From positions 1 to 64,000 of the forward strand of contig JACOSO010000024.1 of the NCBI GenBank assembly GCA_016178785.1: DNA of 64,000 bases. Reading direction: 5' to 3'. The notes below the pieces were generated by a model. It was not told the origin of the DNA. It saw only the letters and a list, made by a program, of their open reading frames with translations, and did no database searches. The first letter of the stretch is position 1; the number at the start of each line of letters is the position of its first letter. Shown here in pieces: positions 39,471-53,976 of this stretch. Made by a program: the position numbers and the translations under genes. This DNA comes from Bacteroidota bacterium (GTDB lineage: Bacteria > Bacteroidota > Bacteroidia > Cytophagales > Cyclobacteriaceae).

Positions 39471-41279
39471 TCAAAAACTCCAGCTCGCTCCACCAAGTAC
39501 TTGAAAGCCTCTTACGGGGTAATTCAAATACATCTGATACCTGCTCGACAAAACATTATTGAAGGTGAAGAACACCGAAAATTGCTTCGACACAAAGTAG
39601 TTTGCTCTTATATTCAAGTCAGCAGCGGCATTAAGTGAAACCAAATTCTTTTTTTCTAAATCTAATGCTTTTGCTCCCCCTTGCGCAATAAAGTCCACTT
39701 CGAGCAGAAGTTTATCGTAAATATTGTATGCTGAGTTAATGGTCATTCGATAGGAAGGCCTTTGCAATGCTCCGCTCTCAAAATTTTTCCCCGTGATACT
39801 CCTGGCGGTGGCAATCTGGTTGGCGATGGATGAAGAATAAATCCAATAATCTGCTCTGGCATTTAATTTAAATCTGCCGGTAGCGTAGCCCAGTTCGCCA
39901 AAGAAGTTGGTCCGTTGCGTGTTTCCGTTATCATAAACCACATTGAACTTCGATCTAAGAGCCTTGGTTGTATCTGCTTGTGAGTAATTATAAAAGTTTT
40001 TCAGCGTGGTGAAAGACAAGCCAGCGCCAAATGAAACTTTACTGCTAAGCTTCCCGCGAAGTCCTCCTAAAAACTCAAGCTCACGATTAGTGTTGAAAAT
40101 ATTTATGTTGGAATTGATCCAAACATTTTCGCGCGAAAGCGAATGCAATGAAACTTTGTCAATATCGCCTGTAAGTCCTGCGTAAGCATCAACGGATGAT
40201 GACAGGCTGTAATTTGCTGCGAGGTTAGGATAAACATGAAGCCCATTTTGCTTACCAATGGTGTCGTTTTCATAGATTGCATTTGCTCCAACCGTTAATG
40301 AAAGGTTCTCAATAGGTGCAAAAACAAAGGCGGGCTTCGCCTTAAAAATATGTCTTGCGTTCGCTTTGACTAGTACATCTTTTCTATTAATCAAAAAATA
40401 ATCGGAGTTGATGATGATCTTTTTGTCTTTATCAATTTTGTATTCGCTTAACAAATCGAGACTCGTTTCACTCTCAGTCGCAGAGTAGTGATCATTTAAT
40501 TGACTGTAGCCCGCCTTGAGGTTATATTTAAAATTGGCGGGCTTCGAATTTTCGAGTTCTCCACCAAAGCTCACCACATCATAGGTCTGCCTGATTGAAC
40601 TTGATGAAACGTTTTCATTCGGTCTGTATCCATAAAAATGGGTAGTCGTATTTTCGTAATTCAGAAATCCACCTAAAGCAATTTGATTGCCGATAGCCTT
40701 ACCAAACAAACGAAGCTCGGTATTGCCGCTGGCCGAGTTGCCATCATCGACAGGACCACTCAAAAAGCTGCGATGGTAAAACTTAGCGCCATAGTATTTG
40801 TTTTTACTGCGCTTGCTTGCAAAATAAGCTTCGGCATAAGGAGAAGAATAATTCCCGAAACCGGCACTCACATAGTTGCCGTAGATTTTGGAGATCGGCT
40901 CTGTTTTTAGTTTTAGCGGACGGATGGCCGGATTGTAATCCTGAACATTGAATGACAAATTTTTAAATTGATAAGTGATCTCCGGCTTGATGGGCTCTGC
41001 AGGTCGTGGTGGTACTTTTTCGAAATTGCGATTGGCCTGAGGTACCGTGATCCGTCTGTCCTTTTCAATGACCACTTCCACTTTCTGAATTTCGCCCTCA
41101 CCCCATTTTTCCTTCTCAACTTGGGCACGAACATCAAGACTTAAAGCAAAGAAGAAAAAAGCAAAAGTAGACAGTAGACGGCAAGCAGTAGGGAGTGAAT
41201 GCATGCCAGCTCGCAACTCAAGGCTTGCAGCTTGTGGCCTCAGGTCTATGGCTTCTTTCAGTTTGTTTATAAATGTCAT
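39471..41279 (-). CDS. TonB-dependent-receptor-like outer membrane barrel
   Basis: Large exported barrel of about 600 residues with no visible plug domain. The annotated ATG at 41279 lies 2 bases past the TPR stop; a second ATG at 41204 would begin directly at a signal peptide ending VRAQ. The segment between them is encoded by a dispersed repeat (41164-41250), so the N-terminus may be an artefact of insertion. After a Pro-rich link (KVPPRPAEPIKPEITY) come many amphipathic strands and a final QVLGGASWSF. Substrate unknown. Coupling and order suggest it works with the TPR protein. Confidence 0.8.
   Translation of the reverse strand: MTFINKLKEAIDLRPQAASLELRAGMHSLPTACRLLSTFAFFFFALSLDVRAQVEKEKWGEGEIQKVEVVIEKDRRITVPQANRNFEKVPPRPAEPIKPEITYQFKNLSFNVQDYNPAIRPLKLKTEPISKIYGNYVSAGFGNYSSPYAEAYFASKRSKNKYYGAKFYHRSFLSGPVDDGNSASGNTELRLFGKAIGNQIALGGFLNYENTTTHFYGYRPNENVSSSSIRQTYDVVSFGGELENSKPANFKYNLKAGYSQLNDHYSATESETSLDLLSEYKIDKDKKIIINSDYFLINRKDVLVKANARHIFKAKPAFVFAPIENLSLTVGANAIYENDTIGKQNGLHVYPNLAANYSLSSSVDAYAGLTGDIDKVSLHSLSRENVWINSNINIFNTNRELEFLGGLRGKLSSKVSFGAGLSFTTLKNFYNYSQADTTKALRSKFNVVYDNGNTQRTNFFGELGYATGRFKLNARADYWIYSSSIANQIATARSITGKNFESGALQRPSYRMTINSAYNIYDKLLLEVDFIAQGGAKALDLEKKNLVSLNAAADLNIRANYFVSKQFSVFFTFNNVLSSRYQMYLNYPVRGFQVLGGASWSF
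41164..41250. repeat. Phrase repeat inside the barrel gene N-terminus
   Basis: On the minus strand it reads AAGCTGCAAGCCTTGAGTTGCGAGCT followed by CTACTGCTTGCC and TCTACTGTCTAC (parts). The CTACTGCC/TCTACTG part matches the phrase at 7547-7581. It encodes residues immediately before the signal-peptide core. Confidence 0.55.
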
Positions 41280-41281
41280 TC

Positions 41282-44200
41282 TCAATTCTTGTCGTTGCTT
41301 AGCGAATCAGTCTTTGGCCTTTTCTTCGATTCATTCTCATCGATCACTTTCAATTTTGTTGTGGCTTCATTCTTCACTTCATCCATCGGAAAATTATCAA
41401 CAAGTGACTTCAGTGTGGCCTTGGCTTGATACACATCGCCTAACCCTAGGTAGCTATCTGCCAAGAGCAAATAAGATCTACCAACCCATTCCGTGTACGA
41501 AGCAAAATCAGAATTCAAACCAAAGAGTGTCTCATTACATTGTTTGTAATCTTTGGCGTTGTAAAAAATTTCTGCCAACCTGTATTTTGCCTCTGCGCCA
41601 TATTCGTCTTGTGCGGCATTGATCGTGCTTAAGAATTCGTCTTTGGCAGTTTCAAGATCACCTTTGCCTATTGCAGCTTTACCAAGATAGAGCAAAGCTT
41701 TGTTTTGCGCACCGGCATTTACACTTCCTCTTTCTAAAATCACTTTCGCATATTTTTCTGTGGAGTCATATTTTCCCAATTGATAATAAGAATCCATCAA
41801 GCCATTCCATGCATTGTATTGCTCTTTCTTGTTCGAAGCTTCTTTCGCAAGAGTTTGAAAAAACGGAACAGCCTTGTCAAAGTGCGCTTGTTTAAATTCC
41901 AGTTCGGCAATGCGCCCTGTAACTTTCCCGGCCATTGAAAAAGTTTTGTTAGTGTTTAATTCGTAATACAAGGCCAACGCTTTTGCATCTTTTAATCGAT
42001 AGAATGATTCCGCCTGGTAATATTTCGCTTCAGGTAAATTCGCGCTTTGCGGATAGGACGTAATGTAGGTGTCAAAGTTTTTGATGGCGCTGGAATACTG
42101 TTGATCGAAATACAAATTTTTTGCAGCCTCAAATTCTACGGTCTCAATTCCTTTGGCATCTGGAATATTTTTCTTGGCCAGCGCCAAATATTTATCGAAC
42201 TCACCCGAACGATTCGCCAGGTTAAGCGCTTCCTGCAAAGGCAATAAGACTTCTTTGGTCGCTGGATGAGTTGGATAATTCTCAATTACCGTGATGTAAT
42301 CCTGTGCCGTTTTATTAAAGTCTTTCAAATTATAAAACGATGCTGCCCTTCTCACATAAGATACTGGTATGAACGGTGAGGAAGGATTAGAAGCGATCAA
42401 GGCGGTGTAACCATTCTTAGCCTCTTCATAATTCCCTTGCTCAAATTCCAATTGCGCCAACTGAAATCTCGCCTGATCAATAAATCTTGAATTTGAATAG
42501 TTTTTAATAACTTGATTCAACTCATTTTTTGCCTCCCCATACTTGCGTTGAATACCGAGAATGTTTCCCGCCTGAAAATGTGCGTAATCATTGTCTCCTG
42601 AGTTGAGGGCAATTCCTTTCTTGTAGTAAGTCAAGGCATCGCTGTACTGTTTAGAAACAAAATAACAATCTGCCAGGCGCAACGCTCCATCGGCAAGATT
42701 GGGTTGGCGGCCGGGAGACTTTAGAACAAATTCTTTAAAACTGAACAAAGCCCGATCGTATTGCTGAAGATTGAAGTACGCATAACCCAATCCATATCGC
42801 GCTTTCAAAATCAGTGAAAGGTTTTCTTCTCCTTCACCAATTACTCTCAAATAATTAGAAGCCGCTTGTTCAAACTTTCTTCCGATAGAATAGGCCTCGC
42901 CATTCCAGAAACTTGCCTCAATTACAAAGCTTTTATCCACAGAATGTTGCAGTGATTTTTCAAAATACTGAACGGCCTGTGAATAGTTTTCCTGATTGAA
43001 CAACTCCATGCCTTTGAGCATCGCTGCTTTTTCGTATGCACGCTCCACGGCTTCACTTCTATTGGCGGGAAGGGATTCAATGTATTCAATTGCTTTGTTA
43101 AAATTATTAGCGTTTACATATGCTTGTGAAAGCAACTCCTTTATCTCGAGGGTATGCAAACTGTTTGGAAAAGTCTTTAATGTCTTTTCAAATTCGGCAA
43201 TCGCCTGATCAGGTTTACCGAGATCATATGAGATTTTCGCAAACTGAAATGAAGACTCTTCAACTAACTTCTGATCAGGTTTGAATTTGCGAGCAATATC
43301 AAAAGCTGCAAGTGCCATTTGCTTTTGATTGTTCCTTAAATAAATATACCCCAGGTAATACGATGAATAAAATCCAACTGAATCAGCGTCTGCAAAAGAG
43401 TTCTTGAGATATGGCAATGCTTTTGAATCCTGATTTAAAACAAACGCAGAGTAACCTGCCCGTAGTAAAACACTTTTACTTGCTGTCGATTCTTTTCCTT
43501 CAAGATATTTATCGTAACCTGCCAAAGCATTTTTGTAATCTGCTTTTTTATAATAGGCCTCAGCCGAAAGCAAGGCAATATCATCGGCATTGGTCAAATC
43601 CGTTTTTGTGCTGACCGATTGAGCGTACGAGATCAACGCCTCGTAATCTTTTTGCTTGTAATAAACATTTGCAATTAAGTAGGGAACAATTGCAGCATAA
43701 GCTTCTGCTTGCTCAGCACGCTTCAAGTCAGTGAGCGCATTCGCGTAATCACCTAAACTATATTCAGCAAAACCCGCATAATAACTCGCAGCAGGTCCGT
43801 ACTGGCCGCCCTGGGCTTTGATGTAGTTGAATTGATCTAATGCATCTTTCAGGATTTTTTGACTGAACAAACTGTAGCCCCAGCGAAAGCGAGCTGTGTT
43901 TTGTTCGGTGGAAGAAAGCGCATCGAAGTTTGCTTTGTTAAAATAGGTTGCTGCCTTTTTGTAATTTTTTTCATTGTAGAAAAAAGTGGCCAAGTCCGCG
44001 TATGCTACAGATGCTTTAGCACCGGATGGATTATTATCTATAAAATCTTGAAGCTGTTTTTCGGCATCAACGTGATAAAGGTTCAGTGAACAAATTGCGC
44101 GATAGTATTCCGCGTCTTGCTTTTTGATGCTGGGCAGAGGATCCAAGCTAAGGTATTGGCTAAAATTTTCACGAGCCGCGGCATATTGATTCTGCCCCAT

Positions 44201-44449
44201 TAACTCAAACCCTGTACTATAAAGACGAGCCGCTTTCTGTTGCAAGAGCGCATCTTGTGCAAACGATGAGAATGAAACAAGCAATAGAGCAAACCAAAGC
44301 ACCCTCACCCCGTCCTTCGGACACCCCTCGCCCCTGGGAGTGGGGGAAGGGAGTGAGGGAATAATAATAGCAGACAATGTTTTCAGTTTTGAACTAAAAC
44401 TTGTGGTGATTGATTTTATTGCTCCTTTCAGTTTAAAAAATAAATCCAT
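41282..44449 (-). CDS. Large tetratricopeptide-repeat protein
   Basis: Exported protein of up to 1055 residues made of about 25 TPR-like helical hairpins (for example AARENFSQYLSLDP, FLDAYAKALKDGAYEKALEYFN-type pairs; clear copies QALEYFEKSLQH and YFLAQLEFEQGNYEEAKNGY). A hydrophobic segment ending SSFAQ (about residues 50-64) is the likely signal peptide. The first 47 residues precede it and include a GEGCPKDGVR stretch encoded by a palindromic repeat; a GTG at 44308 would give a normal signal peptide. Probably a periplasmic or outer-membrane scaffold for the barrel encoded 2 bases downstream. Confidence 0.85.
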   Translation of the reverse strand: MDLFFKLKGAIKSITTSFSSKLKTLSAIIIPSLPSPTPRGEGCPKDGVRVLWFALLLVSFSSFAQDALLQQKAARLYSTGFELMGQNQYAAARENFSQYLSLDPLPSIKKQDAEYYRAICSLNLYHVDAEKQLQDFIDNNPSGAKASVAYADLATFFYNEKNYKKAATYFNKANFDALSSTEQNTARFRWGYSLFSQKILKDALDQFNYIKAQGGQYGPAASYYAGFAEYSLGDYANALTDLKRAEQAEAYAAIVPYLIANVYYKQKDYEALISYAQSVSTKTDLTNADDIALLSAEAYYKKADYKNALAGYDKYLEGKESTASKSVLLRAGYSAFVLNQDSKALPYLKNSFADADSVGFYSSYYLGYIYLRNNQKQMALAAFDIARKFKPDQKLVEESSFQFAKISYDLGKPDQAIAEFEKTLKTFPNSLHTLEIKELLSQAYVNANNFNKAIEYIESLPANRSEAVERAYEKAAMLKGMELFNQENYSQAVQYFEKSLQHSVDKSFVIEASFWNGEAYSIGRKFEQAASNYLRVIGEGEENLSLILKARYGLGYAYFNLQQYDRALFSFKEFVLKSPGRQPNLADGALRLADCYFVSKQYSDALTYYKKGIALNSGDNDYAHFQAGNILGIQRKYGEAKNELNQVIKNYSNSRFIDQARFQLAQLEFEQGNYEEAKNGYTALIASNPSSPFIPVSYVRRAASFYNLKDFNKTAQDYITVIENYPTHPATKEVLLPLQEALNLANRSGEFDKYLALAKKNIPDAKGIETVEFEAAKNLYFDQQYSSAIKNFDTYITSYPQSANLPEAKYYQAESFYRLKDAKALALYYELNTNKTFSMAGKVTGRIAELEFKQAHFDKAVPFFQTLAKEASNKKEQYNAWNGLMDSYYQLGKYDSTEKYAKVILERGSVNAGAQNKALLYLGKAAIGKGDLETAKDEFLSTINAAQDEYGAEAKYRLAEIFYNAKDYKQCNETLFGLNSDFASYTEWVGRSYLLLADSYLGLGDVYQAKATLKSLVDNFPMDEVKNEATTKLKVIDENESKKRPKTDSLSNDKN
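44302..44359. repeat. CCCTCAC...GTGAGGG palindromic element in the TPR gene
   Basis: On the minus strand: CCCTCACTCCC ... GGGTGTCCGAAGGACGGGGTGAGGG (parts). The 25-base right end is identical to the one at 52702-52726, and the outer CCCTCAC/GTGAGGG arms are inverted. It is read as coding sequence in the N-terminus of the TPR protein. Confidence 0.8.
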
Positions 44450-44530
44450 GCAAAAAATTTTCAGCGAAGCATGAACAGCATGAACTCAAAACTACAAAAA
44501 AAATAAAGGCGAACCGAATGCCAAAGCAAA

Positions 44531-52496: not shown

Positions 52497-52504
52497 TAGC
52501 TTTG
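52497..52504 (+). promoter_or_regulatory. Putative -7 promoter box of the plug-protein gene
   Basis: TAGCTTTG matches TAnnTTTG and ends 5 bases before the ATG at 52510, so that ATG would be leaderless, as at apaG. Confidence 0.45.
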
Positions 52505-52509
52505 AACGC

Positions 52510-53976
52510 ATGAATCATCTTTTTATTTGGGGGGCGTGCCCCCGTGAAAACGCGGGGTCGGGCTGTACGCTGCAAGTCCGTCCATACACTCCCCTCCGCA
52601 CTTCGGGCCTGTCTGCCGAAGCATCAGCGCAGGCAGGCTTTTCACTACCATCCATTACGCATACATTTCCCTCACACCCTTGCCCTTCTCCCCAGGGAGA
52701 TGGGTGTCCGAAGGACGGGGTGAGGGCATCCATCCTTTTTATTTTCCTCCTTCTCCACATTAATCTCTTCGCCCAAAAAGAACTTTCATTTACCGACAAA
52801 GTGTACGAGCCTCAGATCAAAACCGTTCAACTTTACCCCGACACCGACAACCCCCAAGATTTTCTTCAGCCGTCAACAACTCCCATTCATCAGCAAACAC
52901 TCACACTTGAATTTGACGACCTGCAAGACAACCGAAATAATTATTACGCGAAGTTAATCCATTGCAATTACGATTGGACAAAATCGCAGTTGATGGATCT
53001 TGACTTTCTGGAGAATTACAATGAATATAATCTGACAGACTATTCCTTCTCAAACAGCACCTATTCGCGCTACGTCCACTACCGATTCAAAGTTCCCCCT
53101 GTAAAAATCACAGGAAACTATTTGCTCATCGTTTACCGTGATGATCAGAAGGATTTGATCCTCTCCAAGCGCATGATGGTATTCGATACGCAAATCGGTC
53201 TTACCAAAGATGATCAAATGCTTGGTACCGGCACACTCAACCGCGCCAACCAGCAATTCAATTTTATTCTCAACTATGGAGACATTCAGGTGATTAACCC
53301 TGTCGAAAGCATTCATGTAAACATGCGGCAAAATCAACGGTGGGACAATGCTAAAATTAATTTACAACCGAGTTCTGTGCGCGATGCCGACAGCGAGTTG
53401 GATTATCGGTTCATGGATGACAGTTGGCAATTTAATGGAGGAAATGAATTTCGTTTTGCGGATTTCAGATCGCTCAATTACCCCGGGCAAAACACCGGAA
53501 GACTAAATAAATCGATTAAACCTTATGAACTTTACCTGGGTATCGATGCTCCGCGTGGCGAAAGTGCATACGCTCAATACAAAGACCTCGATGGAAATTT
53601 CGTGATCGATAATCTGGATTATGGCGAGCCGCAAATCACAGGAAATTATTTGTATGTAAACTTTACCTTAAAATGCTCAACACCATACAATGAAAATGTG
53701 TACGTGGTTGGTAAGTTTAACGATTATCAGCGTAGTGAAGAAAGCAAAATGAGGTACAATACTTCGATCGGTGCTTATGAATCACGTCAGTTTGTAAAGC
53801 AAGGTTGGTATGATTATCAATATGTTTTAGAATCCAAGACTCATCCGCTCACCACAATTGAAGGTTCGCATTATGAAACTGAAAATGTCTATGAAATAGC
53901 GATCTACTACCGGCCCTTCAGACCCAATGCAGATTTACTGATTGGTTACACTTTGATTTCAGTAAACCCGAGGTGA
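52510..53976 (+). CDS. Type IX secretion plug protein (DUF5103)
   Basis: Exported periplasmic-side protein of the type IX system; family members seal the SprA translocon when no substrate is passing. The body matches DUF5103: DKVYEPQIKTVQLYP, FDDLQDNRNNYYAKLIHCNYDW, and a Trp/Tyr-rich C-terminus. The first ~70 residues are encoded by two dispersed repeats (52529-52660 and 52669-52726). The true signal peptide (ASILFIFLLLHINLFAQ) starts only at residue 73; a GTG at 52720 would give a normal start. An ancestral short signal MNHL + FIFLLL may have been split by insertion. Confidence 0.9.
   Translation: MNHLFIWGACPRENAGSGCTLQVRPYTPLRTSGLSAEASAQAGFSLPSITHTFPSHPCPSPQGDGCPKDGVRASILFIFLLLHINLFAQKELSFTDKVYEPQIKTVQLYPDTDNPQDFLQPSTTPIHQQTLTLEFDDLQDNRNNYYAKLIHCNYDWTKSQLMDLDFLENYNEYNLTDYSFSNSTYSRYVHYRFKVPPVKITGNYLLIVYRDDQKDLILSKRMMVFDTQIGLTKDDQMLGTGTLNRANQQFNFILNYGDIQVINPVESIHVNMRQNQRWDNAKINLQPSSVRDADSELDYRFMDDSWQFNGGNEFRFADFRSLNYPGQNTGRLNKSIKPYELYLGIDAPRGESAYAQYKDLDGNFVIDNLDYGEPQITGNYLYVNFTLKCSTPYNENVYVVGKFNDYQRSEESKMRYNTSIGAYESRQFVKQGWYDYQYVLESKTHPLTTIEGSHYETENVYEIAIYYRPFRPNADLLIGYTLISVNPR
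52529..52660. repeat. GGGGGCGTGCCCCC...CCATTACGC element inside the plug gene
   Basis: Starts with a GC-rich palindrome (GGGGGCGTGCCCCC), then CGGGGTCGGGCTGTACGCTGC, a variable middle with an inverted GCCTGTCTGCCG/GCAGGCAGGC-like pair, and ends TTCACTACCATCCATTACGC. I have seen this flank pattern (GTGCCCC, CGGGCT-CCGCT, CCATCC-TAACGC) repeated in Bacteroidota genomes; only one copy is in this window. Confidence 0.6.
52669..52726. repeat. CCCTCAC...GTGAGGG palindromic element in the plug gene
   Basis: CCCTCACACCC ... GGGTGTCCGAAGGACGGGGTGAGGG (parts). The last 25 bases are identical to those of the element in the TPR gene at 44302-44359, and here too they are read as GCPKDGVR immediately before the signal peptide core. 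Confidence 0.8.

Follow-up and report, generated by a model that had tools for sequence, protein, structure and literature searches.

Opening question

How can a gene for an exported protein carry two repeats within its signal peptide and still be read in a single frame? The question is raised by the type IX secretion system (T9SS) plug gene located in the 64,000-nucleotide stretch of Cyclobacteriaceae DNA analysed here, referred to as the window, which belongs to a 4.47 Mb draft genome of 100 contigs and 96% completeness. Two mutually unrelated palindromic repeats, element 1 and element 2, both lie between codon 6 and the hydrophobic core (h-region) of the plug signal peptide. We consider it probable that these dispersed repeats inserted successively between the n-region codons and the h-region, that translation proceeds from the ATG at 52510 through both, that cleavage removes the insert, and that only insertions keeping the frame survive. 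The signal peptide would then reach about 88 residues instead of about 16, and the mature plug protein would be unaltered. As the n-region is cleaved off, such insertions may be neutrally tolerated, and survival of the frame-keeping ones only would explain that several unrelated exported proteins of this genus carry repeats at one position.

The interrupted N-terminus of the plug gene

The plug open reading frame (ORF) is open from its ATG over 488 amino acids (aa). It matches NF052315 (T9SS plug protein) over aa 102–481 (E 8e-103, 344.5 bits, above the curated cut-off of 100 bits) and PF17116 (E 4.5e-32). The features of the gene are as follows, with R1 standing for a covariance model described below and L-numbers for the loci compared.

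52510..53976, + strand: T9SS plug gene, inserts included, 488 aa (ORF list, profile matches)
52497..52504, + strand: promoter -7 box TAGCTTTG, predicted transcription start at about 52509 (sequence, spacing in relatives, PMC9723704)
52510..52527, + strand: original start and first six codons (MNHLFI) of the plug signal peptide (sequence, relatives' N-termini, box spacing)
52519..52528, + strand: left copy of the 10-nt direct repeat CTTTTTATTT, possible target-site duplication (shuffle test, L071)
52529..52660, - strand: element 1, a Flavo-1-like palindromic repeat whose Flavo-1 strand is antisense to the gene (R1 and RF01705 scores)
52669..52726, + strand: element 2, a CCCTCAC...GTGAGGG palindrome with in-frame translation PSHPCPSPQGDGCPKDGVR (sequence, genome copies)
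52720..52722, + strand: GTG at the end of element 2, possible alternative start (sequence, start-codon table)
52732..52776, + strand: signal-peptide hydrophobic core and cleavage region, ILFIFLLLHINLFAQ (sequence, relatives' signal peptides)
52735..52744, + strand: right copy of the 10-nt direct repeat CTTTTTATTT (shuffle test)

Element 1 is the GTGCCCC...CCATTACGC stretch, in frame from residue 7, and both elements together supply residues 7 to about 72 of the predicted protein. The two copies of CTTTTTATTT are 216 nt (72 codons) apart and flank the elements jointly. A repeat of 10 nt was reached in only 4 of 5000 letter shuffles of the flanks, and the element-free locus L071 has a single CTTTTTAT at the corresponding spot. 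The flanks of L069, a relative considered below, fit this direct repeat less well. If element 2 came later, the direct repeat would be a trace of element 1, with element 2 nested alongside; this is suggestive only.

Element 1 is a dispersed repeat

The Rfam family RF01705 (Flavo-1 RNA motif) matches element 1 on the minus strand and aligns along the whole model, but with 21.8 bits it stays below the gathering cut-off of 42, as does the best match in the same genome (35.8 bits). A nhmmer search with a small seed gave only 4 copies in 1.55 Mb, and a covariance model, R1, was used instead. Its seed comprised 8 copies, of which 4 came from plug. In a stem check on 8 sequences, 6 of 17 pairs had at least one both-sided change and the covariation term was only -0.34. 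R1 recovered 138 copies, distributed over 17 of 39 genomes and 2 of 15 genera: 8 in the source genome, 34 in genome G011, 37 in G012 and fewer elsewhere. All of these except two copies of G030 were taken into the rescoring, and L069 was added. All but one of the resulting 137 copies come from the genus of the window or from L069, the exception being L163 (G030). The copies of L179, L183 and L228 are no more than about 420 bases away from a contig end, in keeping with repeats that break assemblies.

Element 1 thus behaves as a dispersed repeat, and this may apply to a wider family. Within the Bacteroidia, RF01705 has matches in 72 of 198 genomes, in several of them at or near the 22 candidates scored per genome, a distribution more in keeping with a dispersed repeat than with a lone small RNA gene. 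Flavo-1 hits are described as occurring in either sense relative to transcripts (PMC9723704), which fits a repeat nature as well. Part, at least, of the "Flavo-1 RNA" family thus seems to be a dispersed repeat. RAYT was considered as a mobiliser and set aside: a motif search by regular expression over 219 loci detected no RAYT gene beside the copies, its sole hit being an ORF in L391 that looks IS200-like.

The first-pass annotation had proposed that two repeats lie in frame in the plug N-terminus, inserted into the signal-peptide coding region. The repeats are borne out by the open ORF, by about nine genome copies of element 2 and by an R1 score of 68.1 bits (E 1.5e-12, 52549–52662) that is partly circular, the window copy being among the model seeds; the weak RF01705 match at this site is independent of R1. 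In favour of their insertion are relatives without the elements and further copies of each element at other places.

Plug relatives and the order of insertion

The plug protein was searched in 39 genomes including its own and matched in 36, i.e. in the source genome and 35 relatives. In 33 of these relatives the alignment begins at query residue 69–94, after the insert, a fact of limited weight since a late start alone does not prove that the insert is absent: the carriers G011 and G012 also start at 74–75. The exceptions are G021, aligned from residue 303, and G013, aligned from 124 with a second piece from 71. These alignments show a common predicted mature plug protein.

We compared plug N-termini across 109 loci. 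The closest element-free relatives, L071 (72%) and L070 (70%), have short signal peptides of about 20 aa, MSRLHLFIKFMFVVLPIGLKAQ and MKPFLFFLLAFPCCLFAQ, respectively. The closest plug relative found, L069 (76%), has the N-terminus MKSTFIYSWACPSSRTIGTRSGCTLQVRPRTHQRTSGFPLPSLTLKLFLVLVLSHVQTFLFAQ, which contains element 1 at the identical place and in the identical frame, without element 2. Because L069 holds element 1 alone, the two elements were probably acquired in two separate steps. The expectation that close relatives would have a shorter N-terminus devoid of both elements thus holds for the element-free relatives and not for L069, which keeps element 1. A long N-terminus conserved at the protein level had been named as evidence against insertion; L069 does have a long N-terminus, as a shared insert and not as ancestral coding sequence.

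Two further plug genes carry element 1, those of L029 (G012) and L030 (G011), the latter having the same sequence as L077. An R1 search of 84 sources (1.57 Mb, a few records duplicated) gave six matches, five of them at plug starts (window, L069, L077, L030 and L029) and the sixth elsewhere in L077. The closest named relatives of the source genome are metagenome-assembled genomes of uncultured Cytophagales or Bacteroidetes. On a plug tree of 29 rows computed with the N-terminus removed, element 1 requires two changes of state (counted on 28 rows, L101 being left out). Forcing the four carriers into one clade was rejected (p-AU 3.6e-6, for a group named after the tree was seen). On these two results, one shared ancestral insertion behind all plug carriers was rejected, and the simplest reading would be two independent gains of element 1 in plug. 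In the assembly of L043 / L101 the plug gene appears to be in two pieces, as if frameshifted.

Element 1 recurs in other signal peptides

The same arrangement was found in other genes. In 11 of the 137 copies an open frame that begins at an upstream start codon traverses the element and leads directly into a hydrophobic core followed by a signal-peptidase-like site, as assessed by eye. Besides plug (window, L069, L029 and L030), these copies belong to NamZ (L166, L207), GH3 (L185, L199), LptD (L203), a binding-protein lipoprotein (L219) and a TPR-like protein (L253). Families were assigned by Pfam, for L253 only below its cut-off, and h-regions were judged via hydropathy, by eye and from relatives. 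Element 1 is therefore present in frame in six kinds of gene, as a dispersed palindromic repeat within unrelated genes. The LptD of G011 lacks the element and is 83% identical to the element-bearing LptD of G012. The GH3 genes of G011 and G012 retain, upstream of the element, the MxKKVL start of the element-free L416, L417 and L421, and the element is in different frames in the two.

Where else do copies meet reading frames? Two scans were made, one for frames with at least 80 open codons after the copy and one for at least 60 open codons before it. Copies such as those of L008, L192 and L269 are open into a downstream ORF that has a better start after the element, and were scored by eye as intergenic. 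None of the copies was found to lie within a recognised gene body or mature domain: of 19 upstream-open frames tested, 18 have no Pfam match, and nine of those 18 have no NCBIfam match. The nineteenth, L245 (1291–2196), is an ambiguous twelfth case: the copy stands in frame ahead of a CAP domain (E 2e-6), from which only a weak hydrophobic stretch separates it. Copies in L218, L188, L155 and others close open frames of 100–200 codons without Pfam match, which may be 3'-end fusions or chance ORFs.

Within the window, 13 of 58 crude gene calls are signal-peptide-like. If in-frame N-terminal inserts were equally tolerated in all genes, finding seven of seven in signal peptides would have a probability of about 3e-5, by our own arithmetic and with independence assumed.

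Element 2 and the TPR gene

Element 2 has about 9 copies in its genome, 8 found by pattern and one partial copy on contig C71; the reversed-pattern control gave 0. It has terminal inverted repeats (CCCTCAC/GTGAGGG), as in miniature inverted-repeat transposable elements. Two of the nine copies are in signal peptides, both in the window, and the other seven are intergenic by eye. The second signal-peptide copy is in a TPR gene:

41282..44449, - strand: gene for a 1055-aa TPR protein, signal peptide split by element 2 (ORF, Pfam, relatives)
44302..44359, - strand: second window copy of element 2, same frame (PSLPSPTPRGEGCPKDGVR), directly before the signal-peptide core (pattern search, ORF)

Here PRGEGCPKDGVR precedes VLWFALLL, and element 2 is read in the same frame as in plug. 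The element was not seen in this gene in the relatives' sequences compared. Of the 12 relatives' loci with the N-terminus present, 10 have the upstream peptide with FFKL in frame. At the start of this gene (window 44390–44480, - strand), a TTTTTTGCATGG..TTATTTTTTAAACTGAA..GCAATAAA segment looks conserved as DNA in most relatives' loci and might encode a long conserved n-region or serve as an RNA leader.

Start codon and translation

Where does translation of the plug gene start? The first-pass annotation had left two possibilities, a start at GTG 52720 or passage through the insert. The ATG at 52510 comes 5 nt after the box TAGCTTTG, and 14 of 16 relatives' loci, with and without the element, have a TAnnTTTG box 3–5 nt ahead of the plug start (none in L072 and L073). 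In F. psychrophilum this box is reported to span positions -12 to -5 (PMC9723704), from which a transcript start at about 52509, and hence a leaderless plug mRNA, is predicted. L069, L207 and L219 have no ATG, GTG or TTG within or after the element before the h-region. More generally, no start codon follows the element in 8 of 10 tabulated copies, a table that does not include L253; the exceptions are the window and L029, each with a GTG. Since the box-to-start spacing is kept and L069 offers no other start, translation from the original ATG through both elements is the most likely course.

The alternative is that element 2 provides a new start at GTG 52720 (MRASILFIFLLL...), giving a normal short signal peptide, with everything upstream serving as 5' leader. 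We regard this as possible though unlikely. In its favour, the GTG is in frame, with an Arg and a good h-region after it, the TPR gene has the same GTG end ahead of its h-region, and Bacteroidota are described as lacking Shine-Dalgarno sequences (PMC6847099). In addition, the segment between ATG and GTG folds strongly (minimum free energy -91.8 kcal/mol, z -2.9), and such a 5' fold may lower translation. However, the near-fixed spacing of promoter box and ATG is retained, such a start is missing from L069, which carries element 1 alone, and the peptide upstream of element 2 in the TPR gene is in frame in most relatives. The 210 nt between ATG and GTG are also stop-free, which is weak evidence. 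The passage-through proposal is thus strengthened and the GTG start is disfavoured.

Tolerance, adoption or targeting?

Several points weigh against successive insertion with neutral read-through. The R1 seeds favour plug carriers, and without the 4 plug copies the count falls to 7 of 133. Several pairs are G011/G012 orthologues, so that about 7–8 events, rather than 11, are involved. A Pfam miss does not prove that a frame is not a gene; some 3'-end fusions to unrecognised small proteins are possible, and the Pfam set did not include 8 frames whose stop lies in the copy (L262 apart). An open frame proves little, as the other 126 copies are open in 87% of antisense versus 29% of sense frames. 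For this reason it was dismissed as proof of selection, and the orientation bias of the 11 copies (11/11 antisense) is largely accounted for by the same openness. In a class-wide sample of strong Flavo-1 copies, none of 86 is in a signal peptide, and generality of such insertions across the class is unsupported. This sample covers part of the matches (26 loci, one per genome, and 60 fetched copies, 48 of which are from five genomes), and its copies differ from element 1 in G+C content (0.44 versus 0.62), with an antisense openness of 47%. Some of them are open otherwise: L304 and L392 are at the 3' end of an open frame and L359 lies ahead of a better start. The carriers, where named (L069, L077), are draft metagenome assemblies, and leaderless mRNAs are reported to be a minority in flavobacteria (5.5%, PMC9723704).

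A broader interpretation would be that, in this lineage, signal-peptide n-regions continually serve as landing sites for palindromic repeats. Extended signal peptides of 50–90 residues would be translated through, with independent recurrence in the same secretion genes and one frame favoured, in places modulating export or expression of envelope-assembly proteins (T9SS plug, LptD). We hold this to be rather unlikely.

Selection could also have adopted the element, its n-regions tuning export or expression as extended signal peptide or as 5' RNA structure and being kept for that reason. The two changes of state in plug are compatible with this idea. So is the use of the GFxLxSL reading frame by 9 of the 11 copies (by eye), although openness hardly differs between the three antisense frames (82, 80 and 82 of 93 scorable copies; the frame landmark is missing in 34 copies and misplaced in L219). 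Long plug n-regions also occur in L074, L075, L076 and L078. However, no element is detectable in L074, L078, L027 or L415, where unfiltered model scores are at most 4.9 bits (L075 and L076 were only aligned), and the proposal that the long n-regions of L074–L078, of L027 and of the GH3 of G010 are decayed element-1 copies is unsupported. The n-regions of L029, L077 and the window pair diverge strongly, numbers are small and the majority of copies are elsewhere. Adoption is quite improbable.

Insertion targeted to a DNA feature of signal peptides, such as T-rich h-region codons, rather than merely tolerated there, is in our opinion very improbable. It is the reading for which the frequency of these copies speaks: with frame and strand limits, a crude uniform expectation is about 1 of 137, versus 11 copies or 7–8 events. 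This expectation is rough, its inputs being 5594 uncovered bases of 64,000, the signal-peptide-like share of window gene calls and an assumed n-region of about 20 nt. The direct repeat flanking the insert is T-rich. On the other side, the class-wide Flavo-1 copies are absent from signal peptides, though they are less often open, and the motif search found no RAYT-type transposase beside the copies.

An assembly or binning artefact fusing repeat copies with gene ends, conceivable in a draft genome with some copies close to contig ends, is barely credible, since the same arrangement recurs in frame, and at a distance from contig ends, in separate assemblies (L069, G011, G012, G007).

Comparison with known repeats and significance

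Rickettsia palindromic elements (RPE) are, like element 1, palindromic repeats in frame in many unrelated protein genes (PMC10969869). They differ by their host phylum and, as described in that source, by their location in unrelated metabolic genes, whereas the recognised in-frame copies here are at signal peptides; the two are set apart by description rather than by sequence. Kinship of element 1 with RPE families is unlikely given the different phylum. Enterobacterial RU/ERIC repeats can also be fused to an ORF, as in pestis YPO1552, where the repeat is reported to form residues 1–30 of a 144-aa ORF (PMC2759123); here, existing signal peptides of conserved genes (plug, LptD, GH3, NamZ) are split, repeatedly and with element-free relatives. 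The Coxiella QMITE likewise inserts in frame in protein genes, the cases described being at the 3' end, as in enhC, or mid-ORF (PMC5896051), in contrast to signal peptides. In the open-licence literature we found no repeats confined to signal peptides, which is no proof of absence, the nearest prior case being that of PMC2759123. The distinctive point is that conserved envelope genes are repeatedly affected at a single functional position.

Autotransporters have extended signal peptide regions, in which a long N-terminal extension with conserved peptide sequences precedes a normal h-region. Both cases have a long extension, made in the present one of repeat DNA that varies between carriers.

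Repeats in coding DNA usually pass for rare accidents, and those of Rickettsia for a puzzle. In the present case a rule becomes visible, namely that they are found in the discarded part of the protein. This hints that the Sec system may be indifferent to n-region length in nature and that such repeats may be a source of extended signal peptides. Automated start-codon calls for genes of this kind may often be wrong.

Other N-terminal repeats

Two further N-termini have short repeats of another type. In L048, which belongs to another genus, the N-terminal open frame of the plug ORF contains TTTCGAG heptamer repeats. In the window, heptamer-like repeats (CAAGCTGCAAGC, CTACTGCTTGCCGTCTACTGTCTAC; 41150–41290, - strand) stand ahead of the hydrophobic core in the gene that follows the TPR gene (39471..41285), whose relatives differ in their N-termini.
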